Shown here: positions 19,995 to 63,531 of the stretch, piece by piece
Numbering within the stretch: the stretch's first letter is position 1
Layout of the letters: the number at the start of each line of letters is the position of its first letter
Assembly (NCBI RefSeq): GCF_000016065.1
Contig: NC_009092.1
Location: forward strand, 682,001-746,000
From: Shewanella loihica PV-4
Lineage (GTDB): Bacteria > Pseudomonadota > Gammaproteobacteria > Enterobacterales > Shewanellaceae
Reading direction: 5' to 3'
DNA: 64,000 nucleotides
Notes under the pieces: model-generated
Databases searched by the model: none
Told to the model about the DNA's origin: nothing
What the model saw: only the letters and a program-made list of their open reading frames with translations
Translations under genes and position numbers: made by a program

Positions 19995-21263
19995 TTAGCT
20001 AAAGATCCCCTTGATCATGAAGAAGAAGATGATCGACAGGCCCGCGCCCGCAGGTAGTGTGACTACCCAAGAGACCACGATGTTACGTACCACGCCGATG
20101 TTGATGGCGGCGATACCACGCGCCATACCCACACCCAACACGGCACCAACCAGTGTCTGAGTGGTCGAGATAGGCAGACCCGTACCCGAGGCGATAACCA
20201 CGGTAGAGGCGGCAGCCAGCTCGGCGGCAAAACCACGGCTAGGTGTCAGGTGAGTGATGTTCTTACCGATAGTCTGCATCACACGCTTACCGAAGATAGC
20301 CAGACCCATGACAATACCGAAGGCACCTAGTGGTAGGATCCACCAGACTAATTCAGCCTTGCTGGCGATCTCGCCACCGCTATTTACCACGGATACCACG
20401 GCGGCCAGAGGGCCAATAGCGTTGGCGACATCGTTAGAACCGTGGGCGAACGCCATACAACAAGCGGTCACAACCATCAGAATAGCGAATACCTTCTCCA
20501 CGTTACCAAACTGCGTCTGACGATCGGCGCTCTGGCTCATCTTTAGACGTCTGATGGCAATCATACCGCCAATGCCCACCAGGATCGCAATAAAGACCGC
20601 CAGTGAGTAGGCTTCGACGTTGGTGAAGTGCAGACCTACGTGCTTCAGACCCTTCTTGATGGTCACCAGCGACATGACGAAACCGGCCAGTGCCATATAG
20701 AAAGGCACGTAACGCTTGGCGTTTTCCAGCGGGTTGTCAGTGTTGAAGATCAGCTTCTGTACGCTTTGGAAGATGGTAAAGGCGATAAAGCCAGAGATCG
20801 CCGGTGTGATGATCCATGACCCCACGATACCCAATACCTTGCTCCAGGCAACAGAATCGGCGCTCACACCCACGGCGGCAAAACCTACGATAGCGCCGAC
20901 GATAGAGTGAGTGGTCGATACCGGCCAGCCCAGGGCTGACGCGACAACCAACCAGATACCGGCAGCCAGTAGCGCCGAGATCATGCCGTACACCAGCAGC
21001 TCAGGTGAGTCGACAAAATAGGCCGAATCTATGATCCCTTTACGGATCGTGCTGGTTACTTCACCGCCTGCGAGGTACGCGCCGGCAAATTCGAAGATCA
21101 TCGCGATGATGATCGCTTGTTTAATGGTGATCGCGTTTGAACCTACTGAGGTTCCCATAGCATTAGCGACATCGTTTGCGCCAATACCCCACGCCATTAA
21201 AAATCCAAATGCAGCCGCAATGGCAATTAGCCACGGGCCATTGGTGATTAATACATCAACCAT
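19995..21263 (-). CDS. pit: Low-affinity inorganic phosphate transporter, PiT family
   Basis: A 422-residue polytopic membrane carrier of the PiT family that imports phosphate (as metal-phosphate or with a cation). Both copies of the PiT signature are present: GANDVANAMGTSVGS near residue 27 and GSNDVANAIGPLAAVVS near residue 277, with STTHSIVGA and STTQTLVGAVLGVG motifs. About ten to eleven membrane helices are predicted by eye. It follows the DUF47 gene with a 24-base gap, a standard PiT-accessory pairing, and both are ended by the terminator at 19942. Confidence 0.93.
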   Translation of the reverse strand: MVDVLITNGPWLIAIAAAFGFLMAWGIGANDVANAMGTSVGSNAITIKQAIIIAMIFEFAGAYLAGGEVTSTIRKGIIDSAYFVDSPELLVYGMISALLAAGIWLVVASALGWPVSTTHSIVGAIVGFAAVGVSADSVAWSKVLGIVGSWIITPAISGFIAFTIFQSVQKLIFNTDNPLENAKRYVPFYMALAGFVMSLVTIKKGLKHVGLHFTNVEAYSLAVFIAILVGIGGMIAIRRLKMSQSADRQTQFGNVEKVFAILMVVTACCMAFAHGSNDVANAIGPLAAVVSVVNSGGEIASKAELVWWILPLGAFGIVMGLAIFGKRVMQTIGKNITHLTPSRGFAAELAAASTVVIASGTGLPISTTQTLVGAVLGVGMARGIAAINIGVVRNIVVSWVVTLPAGAGLSIIFFFMIKGIFS

Positions 21264-21287
21264 GTTGATACCTTGATAACTTTGTTT

Positions 21288-21968
21288 TTAGACGCGAGCT
21301 AACATTAGCTCTAGGCGGGAACCGACACGCTCGGCAAGGTCTGCCAAGTCTCCAACCCACTCAATTATCTTATAGAGGAACATCACATCCACAGGGTTTA
21401 GCTGATTCTCGATGCTAAACAACTGACGACGGATTTTGATTTGTAGATCGTCGGTGTCCTCTTCAATTTTGTCGAGTTCCACGATCATTTTAGCGACAAG
21501 ATCGACCTCACGGCCTCTGAAACCTGTTTCTAGCAGGTCATCGAGCTCGTTAATGGCTTGCTTAGCCTGAGCCACTGCATCGAGACAGCGTGCCAGGTAG
21601 GCATTAAAGGTATCTTGAATTGCTTCTGGGACAAGTAGCTGACGGCCGATAACGCGACCTGAAATGTCTTTCGCCTTGTTGGCGATTTTATCTTGCTGGG
21701 TAAGTAGCTCCAGTAAGTCTGTTCTTTCAACTGGCATAAACAGGCCGCCGGGAAGCGTTAAGCGGATCTCACGCTTGAGTTCGTCTGCTTCACGTTCTGA
21801 TTGGCTGATTTGTTTACGGAGTTGAACCGCTTTGTCCCAGTCACCTGCGACAGTAGCGTCAAAAAATGGTACAAGGATCGAGGCACAATCGTGCACCTTG
21901 TCGATATGATCTTGTAATGGTTTAATTGGCGATTTTGCAAACACGCCCAAAATAGAGTTTACTGGCAT
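21288..21968 (-). CDS. DUF47/TIGR00153 PhoU-like accessory protein of the phosphate transporter
   Basis: A 226-residue, all-helical cytoplasmic protein of the TIGR00153 (DUF47) family, distantly related to PhoU. It begins MPVNSILGVFAKSPIKPLQDH, a familiar family start. A helical metal-binding bundle with many E/D residues follows (ELKREIRLTLPGGLFMPVERTDLLELL, read in part). Such proteins are usually co-transcribed with pit genes and are thought to regulate them. It is first in the two-gene operon, with a candidate Pho box about 160 bases upstream. Confidence 0.9.
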   Translation of the reverse strand: MPVNSILGVFAKSPIKPLQDHIDKVHDCASILVPFFDATVAGDWDKAVQLRKQISQSEREADELKREIRLTLPGGLFMPVERTDLLELLTQQDKIANKAKDISGRVIGRQLLVPEAIQDTFNAYLARCLDAVAQAKQAINELDDLLETGFRGREVDLVAKMIVELDKIEEDTDDLQIKIRRQLFSIENQLNPVDVMFLYKIIEWVGDLADLAERVGSRLELMLARV

Positions 21969-22125
21969 TGCCGTGTACCTATTTAGGTTATTCCACTGTT
22001 GGAAAATGCGGGCGCATGTTAACCCAAGCGTCCGCGTATTGAAACTGTGTTTTTATATAAAAACCCACAGTTTTTATTCTAACGAGTTATATATAAACTG
22101 CAATGCGAGATACTAATGGCCGATT

Positions 22126-22143
22126 ATGACATTAATGTGACAT
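22126..22143 (-). promoter_or_regulatory. Candidate PhoB box upstream of the DUF47-pit operon
   Basis: On the minus strand ATGTCAC-ATTA-ATGTCAT gives two TGTCA repeats 11 bases apart, the spacing of the Pho box (CTGTCAT-N4-CTGTCAY), with C-to-A changes at the first base of each repeat. It lies about 160 bases upstream of the operon. Binding is unproven. Confidence 0.4.
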
Positions 22144-22221
22144 TGTGAAATTTTCATTAAAGTATAATGACACATTCATTACAGTTCCGAGTCCTAGATT
22201 AAAAAAGTGAGCAGCTGGCGA

Positions 22222-23709
22222 ATGGAAGCCGAGATAGAGCTAAAACTATTTTTCCCCGAAAACAAACGCGAAGCCTTGGTATCACTGCTTAACAGTCTAC
22301 CCCATAGTGATGCAAAAGGCGCGATTCATCTGACCAACAGTTACTACGATACCCCAGATCTTCAGCTCAGACGCTGGGACATGGGACTGCGTATTCGTGG
22401 CCGAGACGGTCAATTTGAGCAGACGATCAAGACCGCCGGCACTGTGGTAGGTGGGGTGCACTCCCGCCCCGAGTACAATATTGATATCGATCAAGCAAAG
22501 GTCAATTTGTCGCTTTTCCCCACTGAGATCTGGCCAGAGGGCGCCGAAATCGGCCCGGTGCAGGATGCGCTGGTCTCGCTGTTTGACACAGACTTTACCC
22601 GCATGAGCTGGCATATCTATCTCGATGAGAGTCTGGTGGAGGTGGCGCTGGATATTGGCAGCATCAGCGCCAATGGCCAGTGCGAGCCTATCTGTGAGTT
22701 GGAATTTGAGCTGCTGGCGGGCGATGCCCAGGCGCTATTGGCGCTGGCCGAGCGGGTGACAGAGCAGATCCCGGCGAGACTTGGGCGCGCCAGCAAGGCC
22801 CAGCGGGGTTATCGCCTGGCGGCCATGGCTAGCCCCCTGCAGCTAGATACCCTGGCCTTTATCGCCCTGCCAAAGAAGGGCACTCCGAAACAGGCCTTGG
22901 TGACTCTATTGGAAACCGGCCTTGATCGCTGGCAGTTGCTGGAAGAGATGCTGCTGGAATCCCGGCAGGCGGCGCGGCAGTTGCCGTTGCTTGGCTATCG
23001 TCTGCGCGCCTGCATTCGCCTGCTGCGTTGCACCCTGGCGCAGTTTTCCCTGCTGGACGACAAATTGCTGCAGGCCTTCGACGCCATAGAGTCGCAGCTG
23101 AGCTTCGTCGACAAGGGGCTGAGTCTTTGCGAGCTGCTGGACGGTGACGGTGCCCTGCTGAGTAACCTGAGTGAGCCCGAAGGCTTGCTTGATGCGGTGC
23201 GCCATGAGCTGGCAGCCCTGGAGATGCCACAAAAGATAGATGCCATGCTTAACCATGTGACCTATGGTCAGTTGCAGGTTCGTCTGGTGAGCCTCTTGAT
23301 GGCGGTCAACGCCGGGCAGGTATATATCAGCGAGCAGCAGAGCCTGCAGGCCTTCGCCGATCGGCTGCAGGAAGCCTCCTGGCAGCAGATTGTCGATTTA
23401 ATGCCTTCCAATGCCGAGCTGAGCAGCGAAGATTATCAATCTTTTGCCAAGGCGCTTGATGAGAGCATCTTGGTCGGTGTCGCCTATGGTGAGCTGTATA
23501 AGCATAAGTCGCGGGATCAGTTCCGAGCCCCCTGGCAGGACTTGGTATTAGGCATACGCACCCTGGGTGCCTATCACAGTCTGAGGCAAACCGCCGCCAC
23601 GCAGGGGCGGGATATCGATGATTGGCTCGATAGCAAGGAGCAGAGCCTGCTGTTTGCCATGGAGCATTCGCGCCGCTCGGCGCTTAAGGTGCAGCCCTAC
23701 TGGCGATAA
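22222..23709 (+). CDS. ygiF: CYTH-CHAD domain protein, inorganic triphosphatase YgiF-like
   Basis: A 495-residue cytoplasmic protein. The N-terminal CYTH domain (residues 1-200) starts with the signature EIELK and has further basic/acidic tunnel residues (LRIRGRDG, RPEYN, ICELEFELL). In the E. coli homologue this domain hydrolyses inorganic tripolyphosphate. The C-terminal CHAD domain (about 215-495) is a helical region expected to bind polyphosphate (CIRLLRCTLAQF, ALKVQPYW). I take the ATG at 22222; the frame also has a GTG at 22207, and neither has a clear ribosome-binding site. It is divergent from the phosphate uptake pair, which makes thematic sense. Confidence 0.88.
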   Translation: MEAEIELKLFFPENKREALVSLLNSLPHSDAKGAIHLTNSYYDTPDLQLRRWDMGLRIRGRDGQFEQTIKTAGTVVGGVHSRPEYNIDIDQAKVNLSLFPTEIWPEGAEIGPVQDALVSLFDTDFTRMSWHIYLDESLVEVALDIGSISANGQCEPICELEFELLAGDAQALLALAERVTEQIPARLGRASKAQRGYRLAAMASPLQLDTLAFIALPKKGTPKQALVTLLETGLDRWQLLEEMLLESRQAARQLPLLGYRLRACIRLLRCTLAQFSLLDDKLLQAFDAIESQLSFVDKGLSLCELLDGDGALLSNLSEPEGLLDAVRHELAALEMPQKIDAMLNHVTYGQLQVRLVSLLMAVNAGQVYISEQQSLQAFADRLQEASWQQIVDLMPSNAELSSEDYQSFAKALDESILVGVAYGELYKHKSRDQFRAPWQDLVLGIRTLGAYHSLRQTAATQGRDIDDWLDSKEQSLLFAMEHSRRSALKVQPYWR

Positions 23710-24642: not shown

Positions 24643-24975
24643 TTATTCGTTTTTGTCGACAAAATGAACCAGGTCATCCAATACGCGGCGTTTTATTTCC
24701 AGTTGCTCATCGGCGGCCAGGCCATATTTCTCCGCCAGCAGTTGATAATCTTCCGGGCTGAGGGAGACGGTGAGGCGTGGACGCTTGGGCCGCTTGGTGG
24801 TGGCCAGCCCTAGAATGCTGCGGATCTGATCTGAGGGGCTGACACCGGCATCCAACGCGGCCTTGCGGATAGAGTATTGAAACTTCTCGTCCAGATCGAA
24901 GGCGACCTGGGTGGCCTTGGCGGCTTTCTGATTCTGCTGCCACTGTTCGGGAAGCAGCTTCTTATTCTTGCTCAT
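24643..24975 (-). CDS. Small ribbon-helix-helix-like protein, candidate regulator
   Basis: A 110-residue basic protein with no signal peptide. Residues 70-110 (RLTVSLSPEDYQLLAEKYGL and beyond) look like a short beta strand followed by two helices, the ribbon-helix-helix pattern. Residues 20-60 (FDLDEKFQYSIRKAALDAGVS) look like a second, similar unit. It lies between the DUF2491 and channel genes of the cluster, 60 bases after the former. It is a reasonable candidate to bind the GACATAWTATGTC palindromes found in the same cluster, although this family name is my reading and not tested. Confidence 0.6.
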   Translation of the reverse strand: MSKNKKLLPEQWQQNQKAAKATQVAFDLDEKFQYSIRKAALDAGVSPSDQIRSILGLATTKRPKRPRLTVSLSPEDYQLLAEKYGLAADEQLEIKRRVLDDLVHFVDKNE

Positions 24976-26644: not shown

Positions 26645-27058
26645 TTACTTTAAGAAATCGGCCAGCTCGTCGATCACTTCCAGACAGTTGTCTGACAGGA
26701 CTGACAGCTCTTGCTCTATCTCTAACATGCTCGATTGCACAGACAGGGCTCCATAGACCACATACTTGTCGTCGACCTTAGCGAAGGAGGACAGTGGCAT
26801 AGGGATGTTGAGTTCGAGCATGGTTTCAAACATCTCGCTGCGACGGTCTTGCTTAACTTCGTCTTCGCCCCACAGGTAGCTGATGCACAGGATTTGGTTG
26901 TCCGTTACCGATACAAACACAGGGATCTCTTCGCGTCCCACAACGTTGACTTGCAGTACTTCGACGTCGCCATCTATGGGATAACAGTCGAATTGAAAGC
27001 CGGTGTGGCTGTTGTCGCCAAGTGCATTGAGGTGGTTGGCAATGTTGTGAATGTTCAT
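26645..27058 (-). CDS. yjfI: DUF2170 family protein, YjfI-like
   Basis: A 137-residue cytoplasmic protein of the DUF2170 family (E. coli YjfI), function unknown. It is acidic and reminiscent of small secretion-chaperone folds (FQFDCYPIDGDVEVLQVNVV; then MFETMLELNIPMPLSSFAKVDDKYVVYGAL, quoted in part). I use ATG 27058 (MNIHNIANHLN) because AGAGGATAAAT precedes it. The frame's first ATG at 27076 lies inside a palindrome and lacks a ribosome-binding site. It is the first gene after a well-formed promoter with paired operators and leads the yjfI-yjfJ-yjfK segment. Confidence 0.82.
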   Translation of the reverse strand: MNIHNIANHLNALGDNSHTGFQFDCYPIDGDVEVLQVNVVGREEIPVFVSVTDNQILCISYLWGEDEVKQDRRSEMFETMLELNIPMPLSSFAKVDDKYVVYGALSVQSSMLEIEQELSVLSDNCLEVIDELADFLK

Positions 27059-27071
27059 ATTTATCCTCTTT

Positions 27072-27120
27072 GACATATTATGTCTGCGATTAAAGATAGC
27101 ACTGCGACATAATATGTCAA
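27072..27120 (-). promoter_or_regulatory. Promoter with two GACATAWTATGTC operators upstream of yjfI
   Basis: On the minus strand a perfect -35 TTGACA (27115-27120) is followed 16 bases later by TATCTT (27093-27098), a fair -10. A perfect 13-bp palindrome, GACATATTATGTC on this strand (27106-27118), overlaps the -35. A second one (27072-27084) falls near the expected transcription start, with centres 34 bases apart. This is the classic layout of a repressible promoter. Confidence 0.7.
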
Positions 27121-27148
27121 GCGCTATTTTTGTGTTCCATTTTTACCT

Positions 27149-28876
27149 TCAGTCGAGCGTCAGGTTTTCATCCTCTGACCAGGCGCGCTGATGGTAGCGA
27201 TACAGATGCATTGAGCCTATATCGTTGACCTTCACCTGGTCTGCATGTTCATAATAATTTTTAGGAAATTCAAAAGCCGCCCTGATAAGCCCAGGCGTGA
27301 GCCAGGGGTCATCGACCGGCAGCTCTGTCATACTCGACAGCCGCTGCTTGGCGTTTTGGCCCCTTAGGGTGCCTATGCTCCAGCCCCATTCGCCGAAACT
27401 GGGCACATTGTGGTGATACTGCTCAACTTGAAAGCTTGCGGCTTGCAGCGTCTTACCGACCGAGATGAAGGCCTTGGCGGCGTGATAGGGGGAGGTCGAC
27501 TGCACCGAGATCGCCCCGTCGCTGCTCAGCAGCTCCTTGAGCTTGCGATAGAAGAGATCCGAATAAAGCTTGTTGAGATCCGGATGGCTGGGGTCGGGTA
27601 GATCCACGATAATGGCGTCAAACTTCTCGCCGCGCCTTATTAGCTTGTCGGCGCCGTTAAAGGCATCGTCTATCAGCAGCTCGACCCGCGCATCGTTAAA
27701 GGCATCGCCATTAAGCTTTAACAGCGCGTTTGATAGTCGCGGCGGCATCTCTGGGTCGCCCTCCTTGAACAGCCTCACCAGATCCGCGTCGAGATCCATC
27801 AGGGTGACCTGCTTGGGTTGCCACTTGAGCACCTGCCTCAGTCCAAGTCCGTCGCCGCCCCCTATGATCAACACCTTATCGTGACGGGCACTGGCGGCCA
27901 GCGTCGGGTGTACCAGGAAGGCGTGATAGATATGCTCATCCTGGCTGGAGAACTGCAGGCGGCCGTTGATATACAGAGAGTAGACAGGCGCCAGGTGATT
28001 GCCCCGCAGACGCTCGGTAAAGGTGAGCTGCTGAAAACGGGTCGCCTTGGCATAGACCACCTTGTCCTTGTAGAGCAGATTGTTGAAGGCCTGATCCCAC
28101 TTGGGGCCATGAATGGCCAGTACCAGCAATATACCAGTGGCGAGCAGATGGCCTGCCAATAACAGTCGGTTAAAGCGGATCTTGGACCAGAAACGCCAGA
28201 TAAACAGGAAGCCGGCCAGCAGGTTAAAGCTGGCGGTGAGCGCCGCGGCCAGCTGGATATCCAGCGCCAGCATGAAGATCACCCAGATGGCGGCGCCGAC
28301 GCCGGCACCTATATAGTCGGCGCCATAGATGGTGCCTGCGTTATGCATTAGGTGCTCGTCACAAAGTGACTGACGTACCCGGGCGATCAGGGGGATTTCC
28401 ATGCCTATCATCAGGCCGAGCAATACGCCCCAGGCGTAGGGCAGGTATTCACTCAGCTTCTGCAGCGTGCCGATAAAGCCGCCCTGGGGCAACTGATCCG
28501 GCGGCAAGCCTATGGTGCTGGCGATGATGATGGGCAGCTGTTGGCCGAAGCCGATCACGGCGGCGGTGATCAGAATCGCCAGGGCGCCGCAGAGGGCGAC
28601 GCACAGCTCCAGCATGGCGAAGCCGGTGAAGGCGCAGCGGATCTTACGCGCGGCGAAGGCGCCGACGCCCATGGAGACTATCATCAGGCCGATCATTGTG
28701 TAGATGGCGGCTTCCAGGGCCCCCAGGATCCGCCCCGCATAGTGGGACAGCAAGTATTCGTAGATGAGGCCACAGGCGGCCAGTACCGCCATGATCCCCA
28801 GCAGCAGGAGATCGTCGAACCAGCTTAATGATTTAACGCCTGCAGGAGCAGGCGTTGTGGTGTGTGTTGATTGCAT
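27149..28876 (-). CDS. Membrane-anchored spermidine synthase-like aminopropyltransferase
   Basis: A 575-residue fusion of about eight N-terminal membrane helices (residues 20-245) to a cytoplasmic spermidine-synthase domain (about 265-550). The synthase half has the substrate strand VYAKATRFQQLTFT, LYINGRLQFSSQDEHIYH, the nucleotide loop IIGGGDGLGLR and the acidic LMDLDADL. The catalytic-loop VDLPDPSHP retains the key aspartates of VDSTDPxGP. It should transfer aminopropyl groups, perhaps to an unusual amine or membrane target, but the substrate is unknown. It is 13 bases after the DUF350 gene. Such membrane SpeE proteins recur beside DUF350 and PspA genes. Confidence 0.85.
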   Translation of the reverse strand: MQSTHTTTPAPAGVKSLSWFDDLLLLGIMAVLAACGLIYEYLLSHYAGRILGALEAAIYTMIGLMIVSMGVGAFAARKIRCAFTGFAMLELCVALCGALAILITAAVIGFGQQLPIIIASTIGLPPDQLPQGGFIGTLQKLSEYLPYAWGVLLGLMIGMEIPLIARVRQSLCDEHLMHNAGTIYGADYIGAGVGAAIWVIFMLALDIQLAAALTASFNLLAGFLFIWRFWSKIRFNRLLLAGHLLATGILLVLAIHGPKWDQAFNNLLYKDKVVYAKATRFQQLTFTERLRGNHLAPVYSLYINGRLQFSSQDEHIYHAFLVHPTLAASARHDKVLIIGGGDGLGLRQVLKWQPKQVTLMDLDADLVRLFKEGDPEMPPRLSNALLKLNGDAFNDARVELLIDDAFNGADKLIRRGEKFDAIIVDLPDPSHPDLNKLYSDLFYRKLKELLSSDGAISVQSTSPYHAAKAFISVGKTLQAASFQVEQYHHNVPSFGEWGWSIGTLRGQNAKQRLSSMTELPVDDPWLTPGLIRAAFEFPKNYYEHADQVKVNDIGSMHLYRYHQRAWSEDENLTLD

Positions 28877-28889
28877 TCAGGGTAGCGTC

Positions 28890-29789
28890 TTAGGCCATCA
28901 GGCTGGTGAGGATCAGGGCGATGGCCACGCTGATGGCCAGCTCGACGGTGGCGATACCTATGTTGTGCTGCTCTTCGACCTCTGCTTTCAGGTTGATATT
29001 GGCCAGCACCAGTTTCTTCACCAGGGCCAGTAGCAGTGAGAGGGCGAGCAGCATGATCACCGAGAAGATCAGCCAGCCGAGTATGTTGGTGACATAGGCG
29101 GTCGGCATGAAGACGATGAAGTGGCTGGCGGCGTTGAAGCTCAGTGCCATGGCGAGCATATAGCCGCTGTGACGTATCGCCACCGCGATATGCCCCTTGG
29201 CCAGCGCCTCTTGCATTGAGCTGTCGTCGTGGCGCTTGGCATAGCTACGCTCACGCAGACGGGTCAGCAGCACCAACATTAGCTGTGAGATGGCAAAGGC
29301 GCTGAAGATGGCGATAAAGGTGTCCAGGGTCAGATCTTCGGCCCAAAGCAGTACGGAACGTATGATGATGGCGGTGGCGATGGCGGCGGTGGCATCTACT
29401 ATGGCGACAGAGATATTGCCCTTTAAGATCATGGCGTTCTTATCTATCTCGTTCAGCGCCACCTTGTCATGCAGGAAGCGACCGAGTTTGATCAGAATCA
29501 GGCCGAAGATGCCGTAGGCGCTCATGCCGATGGCCTCGAAAAGGTAGGACTGGGCCGCCTCGCCGGTGATGGCGCCGGTAAGTACGATCCCCAGGCCTGC
29601 TACGGCACCAGCTGTGCTGATGCCGAAGGCGAAGTTATCCCGCTCGGACAACTCATGGGTGCTGTTGACCTTAACGGTCCAGCCCTGCAGGTAACGCATG
29701 GCCGTGAGCAAGACGATGGCGATAGTCAGATCTATGGCCAAGATGATCGCCAGTTCCTGGGTCAGACCGTAGTGTTGAAAAAATGTCAT
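28890..29789 (-). CDS. yjfL: Double-length DUF350 membrane protein, YjfL-like
   Basis: A 299-residue inner-membrane protein with about eight helices. It appears to be two DUF350 units in tandem, since E. coli YjfL is only about 132 residues. Unit one runs from DNFAFGISTAGAVAGLGIVL to ILKGNISVAIVDATAAIATA; unit two holds the related EALAKGHIAVAIRHSGYMLA. The function of DUF350 is unknown; the repeats of small residues in helices suggest tight packing or a channel-like oligomer. It sits 11 bases after the lipoprotein gene and has an AAAGGATATTAAG site. Confidence 0.85.
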   Translation of the reverse strand: MTFFQHYGLTQELAIILAIDLTIAIVLLTAMRYLQGWTVKVNSTHELSERDNFAFGISTAGAVAGLGIVLTGAITGEAAQSYLFEAIGMSAYGIFGLILIKLGRFLHDKVALNEIDKNAMILKGNISVAIVDATAAIATAIIIRSVLLWAEDLTLDTFIAIFSAFAISQLMLVLLTRLRERSYAKRHDDSSMQEALAKGHIAVAIRHSGYMLAMALSFNAASHFIVFMPTAYVTNILGWLIFSVIMLLALSLLLALVKKLVLANINLKAEVEEQHNIGIATVELAISVAIALILTSLMA

Positions 29790-29800
29790 CTTAATATCCT

Positions 29801-30757
29801 TTATTTGCCCCGACGAACACTGCGCGTCGTACGACTGCTAGAGTTTCTGAAGTTACTGTTCTTAGAGTAGTTTGAGCGGAACTTGCTGCCGCCAGTTGCC
29901 CGTCCTGTGGTGCTGGCCTTAGGCGTCGAGGCGCTTTGACGCGACAGGCTGGTGGAGCCAGAGCGAGACTTGGCGTAGGGGCTGTCGAATTGCTTACCCT
30001 GACGGTTGAACTGCTTCTTGGTGCGCTCGAAGGTTTGGTTCTGGGTGCGAGCCTGTTTGGGCGAGGTGTAGCGATAGCGGCCCACGTCGTTGTAGTAGCT
30101 GTAGTTGCGGCGGCTCGACCATCTGTCGTAGTAGATGGGGCCGCGTACCAGGTTGGAGAACATGGAATACATGCCATACCAGGCCCAGAAGGACATACCG
30201 TTACTGCCGGTCTGCCAGCTGCCGTAGGCGGGGTTGCCCACCAACTGGCTGCCTGCGCCAAAGTCTTCGCCGCCGTTGGCGAGAATATCCGCCTCACGGC
30301 TGATGGCATTTACCCTGGCGAGGGCGCCACCTGACATGTCGGCGACCACGTTCACCGGGTCAGACAGCATGTCGTTATACAGGCTGGGATCGGCCGCCTG
30401 GTAGAGGTTTTCCGCCTCGTCGAGCTGCTGGTCGAGATCGACGAAATTGCTCTCGTTGCCCAGCTCCTGTAGACGCCGCTTGAGCGAGGCATACATGGGG
30501 CCCTGGCTGCTGGCATCTTTAGACAGCTCCTGCAACAGGGGGGCGACGTCTGGCTTGGTTGATGCGAGGATATCGGCATACTGCTTGAGTAGGTTGGCGT
30601 TGCGCACCTCGCCGTTGTCCAGCATCTGGCCTAGGGTGTCGACCCTGGCCTGGGCCAGCTGTTGAAACTTGGCGATCTTCTCTGGCCTGTCGTCGCCGCA
30701 TCCCGCCAGGGCGAAGACCAGGGTCAGCGCGAGAACACGCATTAGCATCACTGCCAT
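29801..30757 (-). CDS. Unknown lipoprotein, first gene of the polyamine/PspA cluster
   Basis: A 318-residue lipoprotein. Residues 1-19 are a short signal ending in the lipobox LAGC, so Cys20 should be acylated. The next 130 residues are helical and acidic. A tyrosine/tryptophan-rich patch follows (NPAYGSWQTGSNGMSFWAWY, about 175-194; then YYDRWSSRRNYSYYNDVGRY). The last 100 residues are a disordered Ser/Arg/Lys-rich tail. I do not recognise a named family; the position matches the YjfM (DUF1190) lipoprotein slot of E. coli, but the sequence does not look the same. GGAGAAAAC precedes ATG 30757. It should sit in the envelope and be the surface sensor or anchor of the module, which is inference. 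Confidence 0.75.
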   Translation of the reverse strand: MAVMLMRVLALTLVFALAGCGDDRPEKIAKFQQLAQARVDTLGQMLDNGEVRNANLLKQYADILASTKPDVAPLLQELSKDASSQGPMYASLKRRLQELGNESNFVDLDQQLDEAENLYQAADPSLYNDMLSDPVNVVADMSGGALARVNAISREADILANGGEDFGAGSQLVGNPAYGSWQTGSNGMSFWAWYGMYSMFSNLVRGPIYYDRWSSRRNYSYYNDVGRYRYTSPKQARTQNQTFERTKKQFNRQGKQFDSPYAKSRSGSTSLSRQSASTPKASTTGRATGGSKFRSNYSKNSNFRNSSSRTTRSVRRGK

Positions 30758-30978
30758 GTTTTCTCCATAAATTTAGTTGAGATTGAGACCGATAAATGAG
30801 TGATCAGTCTGCGACTTCTTTGCATAATATAGCGATAAGCTGGGTTATAGTAACCTGTAGTGCAGGATAAAAAGCCATCTTTACTCCCCCTGATAATATG
30901 GATGAGTAATTTGGGTGACAATTTTATGCCAAGATGATTACCGCTTGGTTGCATTAACAGCTTATCTATAGCATTGAT

Positions 30979-30991
30979 GACATAATATGTC
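30979..30991. promoter_or_regulatory. Third GACATAATATGTC operator, between the cluster and glnE
   Basis: The same 13-bp palindrome as at 27072 and 27106, placed 32-44 bases before glnE and 222 bases upstream of the lipoprotein gene. A degenerate copy TGCATAATATAGC (30821-30833) overlaps a possible -10 (TATATT on the minus strand) of the lipoprotein promoter. Confidence 0.65.
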
Positions 30992-61971: not shown

Positions 61972-61995
61972 CTTATTGTATTTTCTGAAATTGAC

Positions 61996-63531
61996 TTACT
62001 TTAACCCTATCCGTTTTGCCAGGCGGTGTAAATTACCCGAATCGACCTCGAGATCCCTGGCGGTGGCGGCCCAGTTATTATCGTGCTGGCTCAGGGTTTG
62101 ACGTATGTAGTCGGCCTGAAAGGCTTCGGTCGCCTGCTTGAGGCTGCCGCTAAATTGCGGCGCCAGGGTTTTACCGCTGCTTTGGACGGCGCGCGGTGCC
62201 TGGTTGGCGAACTCGAAATGCTCGGGGTTGATGACGCCGTTACTGCCGGACGACTGGGCCCTCGCCAGAATGGCCGCTCGGTAGATGCTGTGCTCCAGTT
62301 CCCTGACGTTACCGGGCCATTGGTAGCACTCCAGCATGGCAAGACTGGTCGGGCTGAGCCTTAGTGTCTGTAGCCCAAGTTGCTGACGGCAGCGCTCGAC
62401 GAAGAAGCCGCTCAGCAGGGTAATGTCCTGCTCACGTTCTCTCAGTGGCGGCGCGATCAGCGGGAAGACGCTGAGTCTGTGGTAGAGGTCGGCGCGAAAG
62501 CGTCCCGCCAGCACCTCGTTCTTCAGATTCTTGTTGGTGGCGGCGATGATCCTCACATCCACCTTGAGGCTGCGATCGTCGCCGACTCTTTGCAGATCGC
62601 CATATTGCAGCACCCTGAGTAGTTTGGCCTGCAGGGTCAGCGGCAGCTCGCCTATCTCATCGAGAAACAGCGAGCCCTTATCGGCCATCTCGAACTTACC
62701 GCTGCGGTTGCTGACGGCGCCGGTAAAGGCCCCTTTGACATGACCGAACAGCTCACTCTCGGCCACAGATTCGGGCAGGGCGGCGCAGTTGAGGTAGACC
62801 AGCGGCTGGCTGGCGCGCATGGAGCCTTGGTGGATCTCATGGGCGATCAACTCCTTACCTGTGCCTGTCTCGCCCATGATGAGTACGTTGAGATCCGTTG
62901 GCGCCACCACGGCGATCTCCTGCTTGAGGTTGTTCATCACCTGTGACTGGCCGATGATCTCCTTGGTGCCTTCCTTACTCTGGCTAGTGCTGTCACCCTT
63001 ATCCCATTGGGCCTGCAGCGCCTGCTTCTCCAGCTTGTCGATCAGCAGGGCGTTGTTGAGCGACGCCGAGGCGATGGCACTGATCCCCCTAAGCTGCTCG
63101 TTGGTGAAAGACTTAAACTGATCCGGATCGAAGCCATCTATGGTGACGGCGCCTATCAGGCTGCCATCGGCGAGCAGTGGCAGGCCGATACAGGCGTGTA
63201 CCGTGAGGTTGTCCCCCTGATTGGGGATCAGGCCGTCGTAAGGATCGGGCAGATCGCTGTCGGCGGGAAAGCGCACCACATCACCGGCGCGGGCGATGGC
63301 CTCTAGCCTTGGGTGTTCGTGGAGCACGAAGCGGCGGCCCAGAACATCTGGGCTCAGGCCATTGATGGCCAATGGGGTAAACTGCTGACCCTTAAACTCC
63401 AGCAGCGCGGCGGCGTCGCACTGCATGCTTTCCCTGATGGTGTCGAGCAGGCGTGAGAACCTGTCATGATTGGACAATCCCGAGGTGATATCTAACGCCA
63501 TCCGCGTTAATTGGGTTTGACTTAATGCCAT
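61996..63531 (-). CDS. norR: NorR, nitric-oxide-responsive sigma54 activator
   Basis: A 511-residue NorR. The N-terminal GAF domain (residues 15-165) keeps the residues that bind NO via a mononuclear iron: [30 protein letters not shown] and [10 protein letters not shown], with the His and Cys of HAC. The AAA+ domain (about 190-420) has Walker [10 protein letters not shown], the GAFTGA loop for sigma54 contact and Walker [13 protein letters not shown]. The Fis-type DNA-binding helix-turn-helix is at the end ([19 protein letters not shown]). Start 63531 follows CGGAGACCCC. It lies just downstream of the norB gene on the same strand. It should activate NO-detoxifying or respiratory genes. Confidence 0.95.

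Follow-up and report, generated by a model that had tools for sequence, protein, structure and literature searches.

A conserved palindrome at predicted promoters of a PspA gene cluster and its probable ribbon-helix-helix repressor in Shewanella loihica PV-4

What controls the PspA gene cluster of Shewanella loihica PV-4? The cluster lies in the 64,000-nucleotide stretch analysed here, called the window below (NCBI RefSeq assembly GCF_000016065.1, contig NC_009092.1, positions 682,001 to 746,000; coordinates are those of the window unless the genome is named). It brings together, on the minus strand, genes for a putative lipoprotein, a DUF2170 protein, a PspA/IM30 protein and a small protein of 110 residues, and a 13-base-pair (bp) palindrome, GACATAWTATGTC, recurs in front of these genes. 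We propose that this palindrome serves as the operator through which a dedicated repressor controls a membrane-upkeep regulon, and that this repressor is the tandem ribbon-helix-helix (RHH) protein encoded at 24643-24975. From the sequence comparisons given below, a probability of about 0.8 is assigned to this proposal. A preliminary description of the same stretch had taken the palindrome for an operator of the cluster; this part is supported, while the dispersed regulon to which the cluster belongs had been missed.

A conserved palindrome at predicted promoters

Is the palindrome more than a chance repeat? A direct scan found perfect copies at 27072-27084, 27106-27118 and 30979-30991, exactly where the preliminary description had placed them, and 100 dinucleotide shuffles of the window gave none at zero mismatches. 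In its single contig of 4,602,594 bp the genome holds six perfect sites and one site with one mismatch, where the base composition of the window would predict about 0.08 perfect ones; the reversed pattern, used as a control in the same genome, gave one match at up to one mismatch and none at zero. A fourth, degenerate copy had also been suggested at 30821. It differs at 4 of 13 positions and finds no counterpart in related loci, and it was dropped.

The conservation of the sites was then checked upstream of orthologous clusters, in 80 loci around the RHH gene taken from named genomes (79 from Shewanella or Parashewanella and one from Colwellia; stretches of up to 16.3 kilobases). With the three middle bases left free in the search, GACATN3ATGTC occurs exactly twice near the DUF2170 start in all 80 loci and once before the lipoprotein gene in all 79 loci where that gene was recognised, and no further site was found in these stretches. 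All 239 sites nevertheless read GACATAWTATGTC. The two sites of the pair start 34 bp apart in 67 loci, 36 in seven, 35 in three, 33 in two and 38 in one. On a wider scale, perfect sites are present in 45 of 60 genomes, S. loihica included (36/36 within the genus and 9/24 outside it), with a single match for the reversed control, and the 295 genomes of the order contain 330 sites, spread over 82 genomes, against 5 matches of the reversed pattern.

These numbers bear on the simplest alternative, that a local repeat, or chance, accounts for the palindrome in the PspA cluster and that no dispersed regulon lies behind it. The cluster does hold three of the six perfect sites of the genome; moreover, the five genomes of family f7 that carry the RHH protein have two sites each, and the four f7 loci whose sites are perfect have the pair ahead of DUF2170. 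However, the excess of sites over the reversed pattern in the order speaks against a local repeat, and the site kept before the unlinked gene htpX, described below, contradicts it, so that we regard this alternative as having next to no chance.

Where do the sites stand relative to promoters? Promoter P1 (27093-27120, minus strand), detected by a promoter scan, precedes the DUF2170 gene and has a sigma-70-type layout: a -35 element TTGACA at 27120-27115, a spacer of 16 bp, and an extended -10 element TATCTT at 27098-27093 with TG before it. Operator 1 (27106-27118) shares GACA with the -35 element and also occupies much of the spacer, while operator 2 (27072-27084) covers about +3 to +15 of a start site predicted near 27086; the two centres are 34 bp apart. 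The consensus of the 67 loci with 34-bp spacing, the other 13 of the 80 being excluded from the column counts, reads CTTGACATATTATGTC-N4-TG-N-TATCTT, then GACATAATATGTC, then a ribosome-binding site. It agrees with the arrangement given in the preliminary description, one copy on the TTGACA element and the other near the start. Promoter P3 (30965-30993, minus strand), read from the sequence, is directed towards the lipoprotein gene, with a -35 element TCGACA at 30993-30988, a spacer of 17 bp, an extended -10 element TATAGA at 30970-30965 with TG before it, and a start predicted near 30958. Operator 3 (30979-30991) lies on its -35 element, and the consensus of 79 loci is TCGACATATTATGTC, then TG-N-TATAGA. 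A third site at the head of the operon had been recognised correctly before, but not its overlap with a -35 element.

Two predicted promoters away from the cluster also carry the palindrome. Before htpX it supplies the -10 element itself: in 21 of 22 rows, or 19 of 20 distinct loci, TATTAT is preceded at a distance of 16 bp by a TTG hexamer (two rows repeat genomes already in the list, and loci were entered if their site had no more than one mismatch). Before nfeD a TATAGT-like -10 element is found in 5 of 7 rows, and its weak -35 element overlaps the right arm of the palindrome. The operators therefore overlap core elements of predicted promoters, namely the -35 elements of P1 and P3, the start region of P1 and the -10 element of htpX. 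A bound protein that meets RNA polymerase at such varied core elements would suit a repressor better than an activator. It might still be argued that the RHH protein activates from the palindrome, or has a dual effect, and the nfeD site, which ends near the -35 element of a weak promoter, is positioned as an activator's site might be. But in P1, P3 and htpX the operators fall within the -35/-10 region or cover the start, at varying places, and the spacers of 16-17 bp are unlike the long spacers used in MerR-type activation; activation is accordingly considered very unlikely.

Some observations weigh against the promoter assignments and with them against the proposed repression. The scanned region contains 7 promoter-like sites while the shuffles average 6.0, which is no excess, and another promoter-like site, at 30921-30893, lies closer to the lipoprotein gene than P3 does. 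P3, whose -10 element does not end in T, was not listed by the scan. Since the scan is no richer than the shuffles, the weight of the promoter case rests on conservation. In Shewanella, operator 3 might control glnE instead of the cluster, as it stops 32 bp short of the annotated start of glnE; in loci of other orders, however, no open reading frame matches GlnE, and the sites stand before DUF2170. Control by sigma-54 was considered as well and rejected: a -24/-12 site is absent at P1, and the single match nearby, at 30905-30920, is at chance level. In a scan with the -24/-12 consensus and up to two mismatches allowed, the window gave 33 such matches, against 42 expected by chance.

Co-occurrence of the sites with the ribbon-helix-helix protein

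Which protein might read the palindrome? A homologue of the 24643 protein is present in 91 of the 295 genomes of the order. Among genomes with at least two sites, 64 of 66 carry it, and 202 of the 204 genomes that lack it have fewer than two sites; these counts, from tables compiled by hand from genome lists, are uncorrected for common descent. DUF2170 was rejected as the determinant of the sites. In the 126 genomes with DUF2170, those with at least two sites split into 64 with and 1 without the RHH protein, this one being among 35 genomes that have DUF2170 and lack the protein. The same division is seen within single families, where at least two sites occur in 7/7 genomes of f6 with the protein versus 0/16 without it, and in 5/5 versus 0/18 genomes of f7. 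Twenty-seven genomes have the protein and fewer than two perfect sites; 22 of them belong to family f11 and 5 to f25, and the six f11 loci examined have a variant pair, GACATATAATGNC and GACATTWAATGTC, at the same promoter places.

A similar comparison was made for htpX, with 15 genomes carrying the RHH protein and 15 lacking it. The genomes were chosen by hand, and presence of the protein was confirmed in four of them. Five of the 30 had no HtpX match (three with the protein and two without), leaving 25. A site with at most one mismatch in the ten arm letters precedes htpX in 12 of 12 genomes with the protein, seven of these with no mismatch, and in 0 of 13 without it, where the best candidates have 2 to 4 mismatches. 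The genomes G200 and G059, of the same genus, differ in both the protein and the htpX site.

Does the association hold beyond the order? A search of the class found the RHH protein in 12 of 321 genomes, 10 of them outside the order and spread over 8 families. Perfect arms stand before DUF2170 in 5 of the 10 loci from other orders, 15 to 18 bp apart, one locus having a third copy 31 bp further on. Three more have degenerate sites, two as CCCATAWTATGTC pairs and one as GACATAATATGTT with a poorer copy, and the two loci without any site also lack DUF2170 and PspA beside the RHH gene. A scan of L224 and L228 for an alternative palindrome showed nothing in common. Thus the site holds with proteins that are 36-54% identical to the 24643 protein. 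The spacing in the five loci, 15-18 bp against 33-39, suggests that the distance within the pair has changed by roughly two turns of the helix and the palindrome itself has not.

The palindrome could still be a regulon operator bound by some other, unlinked regulator, with the RHH protein doing something else in the cluster. The co-occurrence test covered the cluster's own genes and DUF2170, which leaves room for this, and two genomes, G143 and G115, count against our proposal, having at least two sites and no RHH gene detected. The assembly of G143, in about 600 contigs, is 88% complete and has its sites at the usual targets, and G115 has two sites only, neither near the families seen elsewhere. 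In addition, the RHH gene accompanies the sites in other orders, and it still adjoins PspA and DUF2170 in four operons of other content. In genome G057 it lies beside DUF4178 on a different contig from the sites, which precede a PspA gene, htpX, nhaA and a YqiJ-like gene (the last named by eye). An unlinked regulator is therefore judged improbable, though less so than the alternatives discussed above. A dedicated repressor, with the RHH-like protein as the best local candidate, had been put forward in the preliminary description, and it is strongly supported by the co-occurrence in the order, by htpX, and by 8 of the 10 loci of other orders.

What kind of protein is it? For the 24643 protein, a tandem RHH fold within a single chain is predicted. 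The structure model (pLDDT 74.5, pTM 0.59) has strands and helices in the order E22-25, H30-43, H47-55, E69-72, H74-84 and H91-109, that is, two beta-alpha-alpha units in one chain, each following the strand-helix-helix plan of RHH DNA-binding proteins, and the structures closest to the model are RHH proteins, which we take as a tentative match. In 20 of 20 aligned members the strand residues A21, Q23, A25, R65 and R67 are invariant. No Pfam family matches the protein above cut-off, the RelB/DinJ antitoxin model gave a sub-threshold match (E-value 0.03), and a search of solved structures with the RHH sequence alignment returned only two rows at chance level. The closest named relatives are those of S. 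aquimarina, S. marisflavi and S. insulae, at 95-98% identity. By fold it can be likened to other two-unit RHH proteins: the F-plasmid relaxosome chain, which we take to be TraY, AvtR, and a permuted single-chain Arc. No sequence relation to these was found, and their roles lie in plasmid transfer, in an archaeal virus, or in a designed protein.

Putative targets of the regulon and genes around the cluster

The genome-wide scan for unrelated copies of the palindrome showed that copies outside the cluster are few and stand before membrane-related genes. The remaining three perfect sites precede htpX, an nfeD-SPFH-SPFH operon, and the gene of a 179-residue protein next to argA, for which no family was found in Pfam or NCBIfam; the site with one mismatch precedes yccF. 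The identities of HtpX, NfeD, Band_7 and YccF are backed by profile matches. In other genomes, with target genes read from stretches of chosen genomes that cover a subset of all sites, the palindrome precedes genes for AIM24 (PF01987), YqiJ (PF21001), NhaA (PF06965) and another Band_7 protein, and further for a second PspA, DUF805, a YidC-type insertase (PF02096), an ion channel and several hydrolases; one site lies between a SulP-type gene (named by eye) and an M16 peptidase, and some precede small proteins without a family. One type of operator thus precedes several functionally linked transcription units, and among the sites classified the shared theme is membrane upkeep. The long genes beside YqiJ-like genes in four loci are not called flotillins, since they match no Pfam family and the FloT match is at best far under its cut-off. 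A perfect palindrome also stands at the start of a gene (L054:1323-3005) whose predicted product joins an esterase to a GyrI-like/Cass2 small-molecule-binding domain.

The genes of the cluster are all on the minus strand. The first after P3 encodes the putative lipoprotein (30757-29801); it has no Pfam family, and the lipoprotein of this operon is described in PMC11237479. It is followed by a DUF350 gene (29789-28890; PF03994) and a membrane spermidine synthase-like gene (28876-27149; NF002956, PF01564). The first gene after P1 is the DUF2170 gene (27058-26645; PF09938), whose start codon at 27058 was picked by its ribosome-binding site. Then come the PspA/IM30 gene (26574-25888; PF04012), a DUF4178 gene (25680-25036; PF13785, barely above cut-off), the RHH gene (24975-24643), and an ion channel gene as the last of the cluster (24562-23768; PF00520, PF07885). 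A phosphate/sulfate-permease-type gene, a TIGR00153 gene and a CYTH-domain gene adjoin it at 19995-23709. Similar-looking genes, two of the three named by eye there, recur beside it in nine loci of other families, hinting at a phosphate or polyphosphate link. Elsewhere in the window, a sigma-54-activator-like match with one stop within the matched frame lies at about 61981-62958 (genome 743981-744958).

A proposed membrane-stress response and its relation to known systems

How would such a repressor work? The two beta-alpha-alpha units of one chain would form a built-in pseudo-dimer, whose two-stranded sheet could read the asymmetric half-site GACAT, and two chains would meet on one palindrome. 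The repressor would cover the -35 element and start region on P1, the -35 element on P3 and the -10 element on htpX, and RNA polymerase would be shut out from these core elements by steric repression. As the RHH gene is downstream of P1, autoregulation is proposed: if a single transcript runs from P1, the repressor would limit its own synthesis. Under membrane stress the PspA cluster may be released from repression, as may htpX, nfeD/SPFH and the other targets in trans, the signal possibly being relayed through PspA, DUF2170 or DUF4178. Since the RHH gene keeps its place beside PspA and DUF2170 even where the operon has other content, a partner switch would be an attractive possibility.

The PspF/sigma-54 Psp system of E. 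coli likewise controls a PspA-family gene upon membrane trouble, according to PMC9239133, which treats Psp systems broadly. PspF, an activator that works with sigma-54, serves one operon and pspG, while here we have a sigma-70-type promoter, an overlapping palindrome and an RHH repressor candidate. No pspF gene stands next to the pspA of the cluster; the PspF-family gene above the curated cut-off is found at 2,936,123-2,937,148 of the genome, far from the cluster at about 0.71 Mb, and no search was made for pspA genes around it. Two control systems for PspA, one of them a canonical Psp system, may therefore operate in parallel. In Bacillus subtilis the SigW regulon likewise unites PspA, NfeD/SPFH and other membrane-upkeep genes in one response, but they are switched on by a sigma factor there, whereas a repressor and operator are proposed here.

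Has any of this been described before? Ravi et al. 2024 (PMC11237479) report a DUF2170-PspA-spermine-synthase operon from S. oneidensis proteins, with RHH as the last gene in some cases. It is the same operon as ours, and in the accessible part of that paper no operator, promoter or outside target is given. In the bac operon of P. aeruginosa, DUF2170 (BacA) likewise adjoins a PspA-family gene, and loss of BacA raised the partner proteins; the part of PMC10948618 available to us proposes sigma-54 control for it and, unlike the present case, mentions no RHH gene or palindrome. PMC3223726 reconstructs about 100 Shewanella regulons and lists MetJ and NikR, and the words Psp, htpX, ribbon and Rhh are absent from its main text, the supplements being outside the scope. 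The exact motif strings had their sole match in a plant study, and no description of the operator or regulon was found in a literature search that left supplements, subscription papers and RegPrecise outside. The regulon in Shewanella and its relatives has thus apparently not been described before.

What does the finding mean for these bacteria? For the control of DUF2170-PspA operons, the sigma-54 proposal for the P. aeruginosa relative is the only earlier one in the accessible literature, and the present analysis gives a candidate regulator, a base-exact operator and a testable list of targets for Shewanella. It also points to a natural tandem RHH protein that, as a single chain, may recognise a half-site that is asymmetric. 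PspA, NfeD/SPFH proteins, HtpX, AIM24 and NhaA are joined in one predicted response, which opens a route to finding the signal. A wider scenario, which we put forward tentatively and at somewhat less than even odds, is a second, PspF-independent membrane-stress response in Shewanella, its marine gammaproteobacterial relatives and members of other orders. In it a single-chain tandem RHH repressor would keep PspA, NfeD/SPFH, HtpX, AIM24, NhaA and others switched off until a disturbance of the membrane sets off a partner switch that involves PspA, DUF2170 or DUF4178, and the whole would form a Gram-negative counterpart of the SigW regulon.

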